A stretch of DNA of 64,000 bases, taken from an uncultured Eubacteriales bacterium. GTDB lineage: Bacteria; Bacillota; Clostridia; Saccharofermentanales; UBA5734. Within the stretch, counting starts at the first letter, position 1. Each line of letters starts with the position of its first letter. Below the pieces are notes generated by a model. The model was not told where the DNA came from. It saw only the letters and a program-made list of their open reading frames with translations, and did no database searches. The translations under genes were made by a program, and so were the position numbers. Of the stretch, positions 1-26,071 are shown piece by piece. Where the stretch lies: the NCBI GenBank assembly GCA_903835065.1, contig CAILLO010000009.1:1-64000 (forward strand), in the 5' to 3' direction.

Positions 1-39
1 GCCCGGTGCCGTACGACGGCCATAGCCGGAGTGACAGGC

Positions 40-141: not shown

Positions 142-175
142 ACACCGTCACGATGCTCGCCCTTGCCGGAAAGCC

Positions 176-289
176 CGCTGGAACGGATTCCTGCTCAGCG
201 AGTTCGAGGGGGACAAGTGCGTGCCGGGGTCCGCATCGGACCAGCTGCACAAGCAGCACGTGCTGTTGAAGCGCGCGCTGGGACGCTGA
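176..289 (+). pseudogene. C-terminal remnant of a CGD alpha-type isomerase
   Basis: The last 37 codons read like the C-terminus of the CGD alpha proteins in this window: WNGFLLSEFEGD corresponds to the YDGWLSSEYEGN type of sequence that carries the last metal-ligand glutamate, followed by the usual basic tail. Upstream of about position 176 the homology stops and is replaced by the hairpin repeat; the frame closes at a stop at 32-34. The rest of the TIM barrel is absent, so this is a truncated gene rather than one cut by the window edge. The beta-subunit gene follows 15 bases later, the order expected for an alpha-beta pair. Whether the 3' piece is translated is unknown. Confidence 0.7.
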
Positions 290-24960: not shown

Positions 24961-25197
24961 GTTCGTCGCCTCCTTTGCAGTTCGAGCATAACGGACTTCG
25001 TCGTTCGAGCGGCCCATGGACATCGGATGCCTCCTCTTTCCTGCATTCGGCTTCTCACGTCATAGATTCGATGGGGGAAGGGTAGCGGTCTAGCCTCGAC
25101 CAGCGAACGGACGAAGTCTGGAGCATCGTCGGGGTCTCCGAGTGTATGGAAGCCAGTTGGGCAGACCCACTCCGATCGGGTTGCCCGAAATCTCCTG
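24961..25197. other. Non-coding gap upstream of the isomerase pair
   Basis: About 240 bases with no convincing gene. It contains the alternative start region of the isomerase gene (24961-25026) and a TTCGAGC direct repeat at about 24978 and 25004. No clear promoter box was identified. The hairpin repeat cluster begins at its right end. Confidence 0.5.
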
Positions 25198-25252
25198 CGG
25201 CAAGTCGGGAGCCTGCCACGATGCCGAAGGCATCGTTCGGCTCCCGACTCGC
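25198..25252. repeat. Hairpin repeat element, short divergent copy
   Basis: AGTCGGGAGCC (25203-25213) pairs with GGCTCCCGACT (25239-25249), with an inner ACGATGCC/GGCATCGT stem. CGGCAAGTCGGGAG is identical to positions 60-73, and CTGCCACGATGCC matches the reverse complement of the copy 1 core, so it derives from the same family. Confidence 0.65.
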
Positions 25253-25275
25253 TCTAGAAACTCCGCGGCACTGGC

Positions 25276-25382
25276 GTCGTCAGCTCCAACGGACCCTATC
25301 GCGCCATGTTCAACGCTCCCCCGCTGTCTTCGAGGAAGCCAGCGGCCGCGTTGAAGGGTCCGTAGGAGCTGGTGCGCCGCTT
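25276..25382. repeat. Hairpin repeat element, copy 2
   Basis: CAGCTCCAACGGACCC (25281-25296) pairs with GGGTCCGTAGGAGCTG (25356-25371). Inside are TTCAACGC/GCGTTGAA and CCGCTG/CAGCGG stems, making one long stepped hairpin. The ends (GTCGTCAGCTCC and GGAGCTGGTGCGCCGCTT) are shared with the neighbouring copy 3. Confidence 0.8.
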
Positions 25383-25384
25383 GC

Positions 25385-25485
25385 GTCGTCAGCTCCGACG
25401 GAGAGTAGTTGCGGAAGCTACAACGCAGACCGCTCAGCGGTCAGCGTCCCGCTCCCGACTCTCCGTAGGAGCTGGTGCGCCGCTT
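25385..25485. repeat. Hairpin repeat element, copy 3
   Basis: CAGCTCCGACGGAGAGT (25390-25406) pairs with ACTCTCCGTAGGAGCTG (25458-25474); inside are GTTG/CAAC and a GACCGCTCAGCGGTC palindrome. The ends match copy 2, while the inner stem differs but keeps base pairing. Its right edge touches the stop codon of the VOC gene at 25484. Confidence 0.8.
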
Positions 25486-25972
25486 ACTTTATCGGATGCC
25501 CGCCGGTGCGGTCTTCGTTGTAGATCTCGAGGAACAGGCCGAGTTCCTTGCGCAGGTCGAGGTATGCGTACTCCATGCCCTCGCCCGTCTTGCCGTTGTC
25601 TTCCTTGGCGTGGATCCAGGGGTCCTTGCCGGTCAGCGCCTTGTGCTCCTTGACGACGTCGTCGAACTTGTCGCGGGTGCGGACGGCGATGTGGTGGATG
25701 CCGTTGCCGTGCTTCTCGAGCCACTCCTTGTAGACGGTCTCGTTCTTGGGCTGGATCAGCTCGAGCTCCATGCCGAAGGCCTTGCAGAAGGCGGCGCGGA
25801 ACTCGACCATGCCGGGCTTGCCGTCGACGAGCATCTTCGGGAACATGCCGGGGCCGAAGTCGATGACGTTCCACGGCCCGATGCCGTATTCCGTCTCGTA
25901 GTGCTTCACGGCGGCGTTGACGTCCGCGACGATGATCCCGATCTGGAGCAGATGGGAGATGAAGGGTTCCAT
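25484..25972 (-). CDS. VOC family protein (methylmalonyl-CoA epimerase-like), Gln variant
   Basis: 162 residues. The N-terminal strand reads LLQIGIIVADV, where epimerase relatives have a His ligand before the Gly-Ile; here it is Gln. The second ligand region GIHHIAVRT and the final Glu in LGLFLEIYN are kept. Gln is an accepted metal ligand in some glyoxalases. It is a close paralogue of 28006. ATG behind AGGAGG. Possible role: epimerisation or isomerisation of an oxo-sugar. Hairpin repeats lie directly after its stop. Confidence 0.83.
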   Translation of the reverse strand: MEPFISHLLQIGIIVADVNAAVKHYETEYGIGPWNVIDFGPGMFPKMLVDGKPGMVEFRAAFCKAFGMELELIQPKNETVYKEWLEKHGNGIHHIAVRTRDKFDDVVKEHKALTGKDPWIHAKEDNGKTGEGMEYAYLDLRKELGLFLEIYNEDRTGGHPIK

Positions 25973-26071
25973 GGGGCTCCTCCTTTGTGGGTTCCCGGAC
26001 CTTCGGGGCCAGGGGCTTCGGGTGGGCGATTGGGCTATAATGGTCGCAACAGGACGATGGGAGGGGACGGG

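Follow-up and report, generated by a model that had tools for sequence, protein, structure and literature searches.

The 64,000-nucleotide stretch of DNA analysed here (hereafter the window), from an uncultured Eubacteriales bacterium, holds hairpins of about 100 bases whose ends are alike and whose inner stems differ in sequence but still pair, which raises the question of what these elements are and how their arms stay matched. Stems whose two arms vary together are usually regarded as proving that an RNA is under selection, and a sequence-only reading of the window had seen selection on structure here as well, with a mobiliser of the REP/TnpA-REP type as a possible source of the copies. Our analysis leads us to favour, with some reservation, a genus-restricted miniature mobile DNA that inserts into 3' untranslated DNA immediately after stop codons. 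The hairpins proved real at the places first noted and, with their limits refined, the elements of the window are as follows (R1 and R2 are the two covariance models used):

1..39, + strand: 5' half of copy A's type-ii host hairpin, matching the uninterrupted form at C47:82809, within a 121-base contig overlap
40..146, + strand: copy A, a type-i hairpin nested inside a type-ii hairpin (fold z -5.75 on the + strand and -6.51 on the - strand; R1 108 bits)
142..183, + strand: 3' half of copy A's type-ii host hairpin, reading CACCGTCACGATGCTCGCCC... as in C47:82809
25193..25261, - strand: short degenerate member (fold z -6.29; R2 42.3 bits)
25273..25382, - strand: copy B, a type-i hairpin in tandem with copy C, with a 12-nt 3'-arm bulge (fold z -5.98; R1 78.5 bits)
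25383..25485, - strand: copy C, a type-i hairpin directly behind the glyoxalase stop codon (fold z -7.03; R1 94.8 bits)
25484..25975, - strand: host gene Glyoxalase_4 (PF13669, 9.1e-15), whose TAA stop adjoins copy C

All four window hairpins folded far better than their dinucleotide shuffles (z -5.75 to -7.03), with 0 of 200 shuffles as good. Copies B and C adjoin, as expected of the tandem pair first described, and their row at 25.2-25.5 kb begins directly behind the TAA of the glyoxalase gene, in keeping with the gene-end location that had been claimed. The companion claim, that copies also lie in broken genes, was not borne out. Window bases 1-121 repeat the end of contig C25 without a difference, and copy 40-146 is on an assembly junction, where the nested hairpin broke the assembly. 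Because the two contigs overlap by these 121 identical bases, what looks like a further copy at the end of C25 is copy 40-146 itself. The type-ii 5' half at 1..39 has its start further left, in C25, and the junction between copy A and the type-ii 3' half is ambiguous by a few bases.

Across the family, the hairpins are imperfect palindromes of ~70-110 bases, longer when composite, and every full copy is built to a single plan. In the 5' to 3' direction this plan runs from a base stem through a 2x1 loop, 7 bp, one 1x1 mismatch and 9 bp to a bulge confined to the 3' arm; 7-8 bp follow, then small bulges, again on the 3' arm, that sit within a GTAC...GTGACAG-like frame, and last a head stem. The main 3'-arm bulge is 4, 5, 7, 12 or 13 nt long and ends in AT or CT in nearly all copies; three composite copies bear on it a side hairpin ending GCGAT or CACGAT. 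The short member at 25193..25261 has neither the 3'-arm bulge nor the outer stems. Stem sequences are almost wholly different from subfamily to subfamily. The end sequences that had been reported as common to the copies are indeed shared and fall into two types, type i (AGCGGCGCA.../...TGACGACGCT) and type ii (GAGC.../...GCGGGGAA), with type-ii ends present in both species that carry the family. No attC core sites were seen by eye at the hairpin ends. At one further site (C49; L067:220-275), short tandem copies of GCTTCTAGAGC precede the hairpin.

To place these elements in their genomic setting, we used DNA and covariance-model searches (R1 and R2), which revealed ~18 dispersed copies in the window's own genome (G000, a 2.51 Mb draft, ~98% complete (98.5%)), a count that is incomplete since the search scores a limited number of candidates and misses diverged copies. 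These copies start on C9 at 40, 25189, 25281, 25390 and 82653, on C36 at 14406 and 92568, on C47 at 47622 and in a three-unit tandem at 82818-83110, and at C21:11947, C15:13446, C73:4849, C4:78582, C77:141374, C16:88742 and C49:259, with partial pieces at C24:28917, C36:44342 and C73:4940. The sequence-only reading had made its case depend on further genomic copies and on co-variation among them, and both are present. A second genome of the genus, the one other that was searched (G001, a 94% complete draft that appears strain-mixed) holds 7 copies by R2 and, by eye, at least one further hairpin of the same plan behind its glyoxalase gene. Model R1 matched solely these two genomes among 39 relatives, and R2 matched nothing in the other 21 family genomes except for one weak partial match (E 0.05), and nothing, under stricter filters, in 195 other genomes sampled across the class, such that the family is genus-restricted as far as tested. 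Scans with the type-i end pattern found only short elements and chance matches in the own genome, two stretches without such a hairpin among genome contigs (L079 and L080, read as chance) and no match in viral contigs; with the pattern AACGGCGCGAT, about half of the matches were chance hits in coding DNA. Rfam returned no match at gathering score, and no description of this hairpin family was found among the papers searched.

Evidence for mobility comes from presence and absence between the two species, from nesting and from dispersal. Orthologues in G001 lack the element found in G000 behind OppD, GroEL, an ABC transporter and 6PGD, and orthologues in G000 lack the element found in G001 behind ilvC, a PEP-utilising enzyme and rubrerythrin, a comparison made across species, whose 3' regions cannot be aligned, and not between strains. 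Nesting is seen in the type-ii sequence GTGACAGGCA/CCGTCACGATGC, which is uninterrupted at C47:82809 and has a complete type-i hairpin within it at C21:11936 and C9:40, and again at C36:92557, where the base stem of a different type-ii element is interrupted by a type-i copy. Near-identical copies are present at unlinked sites, and tandem rows occur both in the window and at C47:82.8 kb. A systematic search for target-site duplications gave no general signal above chance; matches at copies B and C and at C47:82k are the tandem copies themselves. Taken together, these comparisons of two draft genomes point to the copies being miniature mobile DNA. The sole long flanking duplication in the set lies at C36:14k (31 nt), where the end of an oppD-like gene is duplicated around the hairpin with 30/31 bases identical (L065 ~1470-1640; C36:14.4 kb).

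The preferred site is narrow. In 18 gene-end cases the element starts within a few bases of the stop codon, with a few looser, and it follows the orientation of the gene in 14 of the 18, or 13 of 17 when the ilvC variants are counted once (simple sign test ~0.05, two-sided). The host genes are ordinary (GroEL, FtsH, SmpB, 6-phosphogluconate dehydrogenase, ABC transporters, glyoxalase, ilvC, rubrerythrin and others) and are untruncated, since their protein ends resemble the ends of orthologues that have no element (the two GroELs share GGGMDGMY and the two OppDs ...SAVPV). TAG is over-represented among the stops that precede elements, an excess that is only suggestive because, of 40 likely window genes, nearly as many end in TAG (18) as in TGA (19). 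Two other features were seen near smpB: in G001 (L127), the stop codon of smpB is immediately followed by a different insert of ~90 bases with a perfect 35-base direct repeat (CCGCCGCAACGGTGCGCGCCCTAGGGAGCGGGCGC) on its flanks, and just downstream of the smpB-associated hairpin is a T-box leader scoring 62.8 bits, below gathering score (L015:1611-1814, + strand).

Evaluating the stems further, we found that the cores are variable yet paired, as had been described. Among nine type-i copies, mostly found by sequence, both sides had changed in 23/44 pairs, versus 7.3 +/- 1.7 in shuffles, and 92% of cells paired, versus 30-48% with the partner slid. Thirteen copies from both species, a set that leans towards structure because it was partly found by the structure model, had both sides changed in 29/37 pairs, versus 14.1 +/- 2.2 in shuffles, and the signal was lost when the partner was slid. 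Selection on RNA is expected to leave an excess of wobble pairs on the sense strand. Of 384 paired cells, 348 were Watson-Crick, 6 were G.T and 4 were A.C; wobble pairs are as rare as A.C mismatches and show no sense-strand excess. The segments are moreover mosaic, such that the outer segment of the C36 copy is 91% like C15 and 74% like C9_82k, and its inner segment is 96% like C9_82k and 62% like C15. A 29-nt head is common to both species at 96.6%.

The ilvC gene of G001 offers a view of one such change. Its 3' end occurs on two contigs, C22 (L091) and C231 (L087), one of them with ~1.1 kb extra before a PQQ-repeat gene, and the pair is probably a strain mixture within one draft genome. The coding ends differ at 2/~125 bases, the two 3' ends look like strain variants of one locus, and 68/69 element bases around the head are identical, with the head itself wholly replaced (TGCTCGGGGACGAGCATCG vs CGGCCATCAGCCGGAG) and both versions able to fold. 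This looks like a block replacement, for which either recombination among copies or template switching could account; template switching is a documented source of multi-base compensatory change (PMC8794818). Because wobble is nearly absent, segments are mosaic and a head has been replaced at one locus, paired blocks seem to be exchanged, or copied from arm to arm, at the DNA level, and our data suggest that much of the co-variation arose in this way and not through independent compensatory mutations. The simple reading of a selected RNA structure is therefore weakened: pairing is certainly kept, as the sequence-only reading held, but the way in which the stems change points to exchange or arm-to-arm copying of DNA.

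The tight position behind stop codons and the mostly sense orientation could nonetheless mean an RNA role, which counts against mobile DNA. Under such a role the hairpin would be a structured RNA of the 3' UTR that guards the mRNA end from exonucleases or tunes its decay, with pairing kept by selection on RNA and spread secondary, and the single conserved plan with its 3'-arm bulges and strong pairing would fit as well. We consider this rather unlikely, given the lack of wobble excess, orthologues that do without the hairpin, heads and bulges that are swapped or vary in length, and hosts that are unrelated, ordinary genes. That the hairpins are transcription terminators of convergent or neighbouring genes is suggested by their location at gene ends and by the C21 composite, which fills the gap between two convergent stop codons, and is nevertheless very improbable. 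An intrinsic terminator has a G+C-rich stem followed by a T-run, and a terminator scan found no T-run behind the window hairpins; element-free orthologues retain a terminator-like hairpin, and by eye a second, terminator-like hairpin follows the element in several loci, which is weak evidence since the scan, being too strict, did not call these.

Mobile DNA calls for a mover, and here REPINs are the closest known kind. They are paired inverted REP sequences of Pseudomonas and others, whose spacers keep length and pairing as their sequence varies, with compensatory changes (PMC3116915). The window family shares with them the ~100-base hairpin with two inverted conserved ends and a still-pairing spacer with compensatory changes, as well as being extragenic, mobile and sometimes tandem. 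It differs in its much longer continuous stem, fixed 3'-arm bulges, few copies (~18) and swapped stem blocks, and its ends read AGCGGCG.../...CGACGCT or GAGC.../...GCGGGGAA, with no GTAG-tagged REP units. Profile searches of the two incomplete drafts, at 98% and 94% completeness, gave 0 matches to Y1 transposases (IS200/RAYT, PF01797), the one transposase family searched; the TnpA-REP type of mobiliser that had been envisaged thus found no counterpart in either carrier. Y1 transposases are present in 11/23 family genomes, and the hairpins might be true REPINs whose RAYT escaped the search or has since been lost, as their form would allow; we think this improbable, as neither carrier gave a Y1 match, the ends have no GTAG tag and the Y1-bearing family genomes have no such hairpins in the model searches. 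Even less credible is an origin by reverse transcription, as retron msd-like elements or group II intron relics: the long hairpins, the 3'-UTR siting and some half-length copies (C24, C36:44k) are compatible with it, but no reverse transcriptase (PF00078, RVT_1) was matched in G000 or G001, while controls did match, and a retron or group II derivation is disfavoured on that count. The mover is probably neither a Y1 (RAYT/IS200) transposase nor a reverse transcriptase.

Since a RAYT in the genome and GTAG-tagged ends were both looked for and neither was found, the family works like a REPIN and cannot be filed as one; it is a new REPIN/MITE-like family. With MITEs it has in common small, non-coding, palindromic, extragenic units with inverted ends and nested insertions, and it differs from them in stems that vary by paired blocks; no parent transposase was found, with Y1 the family searched, and no consistent target-site duplication, the 31 nt at C36:14k being the only one. 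CGTC-tagged palindromic repeats (20-40 bp, with an 8-9 bp stem, a 4-5 nt loop and an unpaired CGTC tag) are likewise palindromic, mostly downstream of genes and with no dedicated transposase known (PMC3733652). Identity with them was rejected on unit size (~70-110 nt here), stem and loop, and tag, as CGTC occurs here in the type-i end only and is partly paired in the base stem. Hairpins maintained by template switching resemble ours in multi-base compensatory changes without wobble intermediates, except that those are RNA genes and ours a dispersed mobile repeat (PMC8794818).

For miniature mobile DNA behind stop codons, an enzyme acting on folded single-stranded DNA would be the most natural idea, because the plan and the bulges persist among copies whose stem sequences do not. 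A trans-acting enzyme would recognise the folded single strand with the bulges as landmarks, and the arms would stay Watson-Crick paired through exchange of paired blocks between copies or, alternatively, through template switching during replication, with one arm serving as the model for its partner, and not through point mutations that slowly arise in pairs. Once transcribed, the hairpins would form part of the 3' UTR of the mRNA and may incidentally affect RNA stability. We raise more tentatively that they form a distinct class of mobile hairpin, with fixed bulges recognised by a non-Y1, non-RT enzyme that targets DNA behind stops and arms that evolve by 'head swapping' instead of compensatory point mutation.

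With pairing kept, wobble nearly absent and a block replaced, the family is a compact natural case for testing how hairpins are maintained at the DNA level. It has also spread in the manner of REPINs although neither genome yielded the one enzyme known to drive such spread, which makes a search for the real mover worthwhile.
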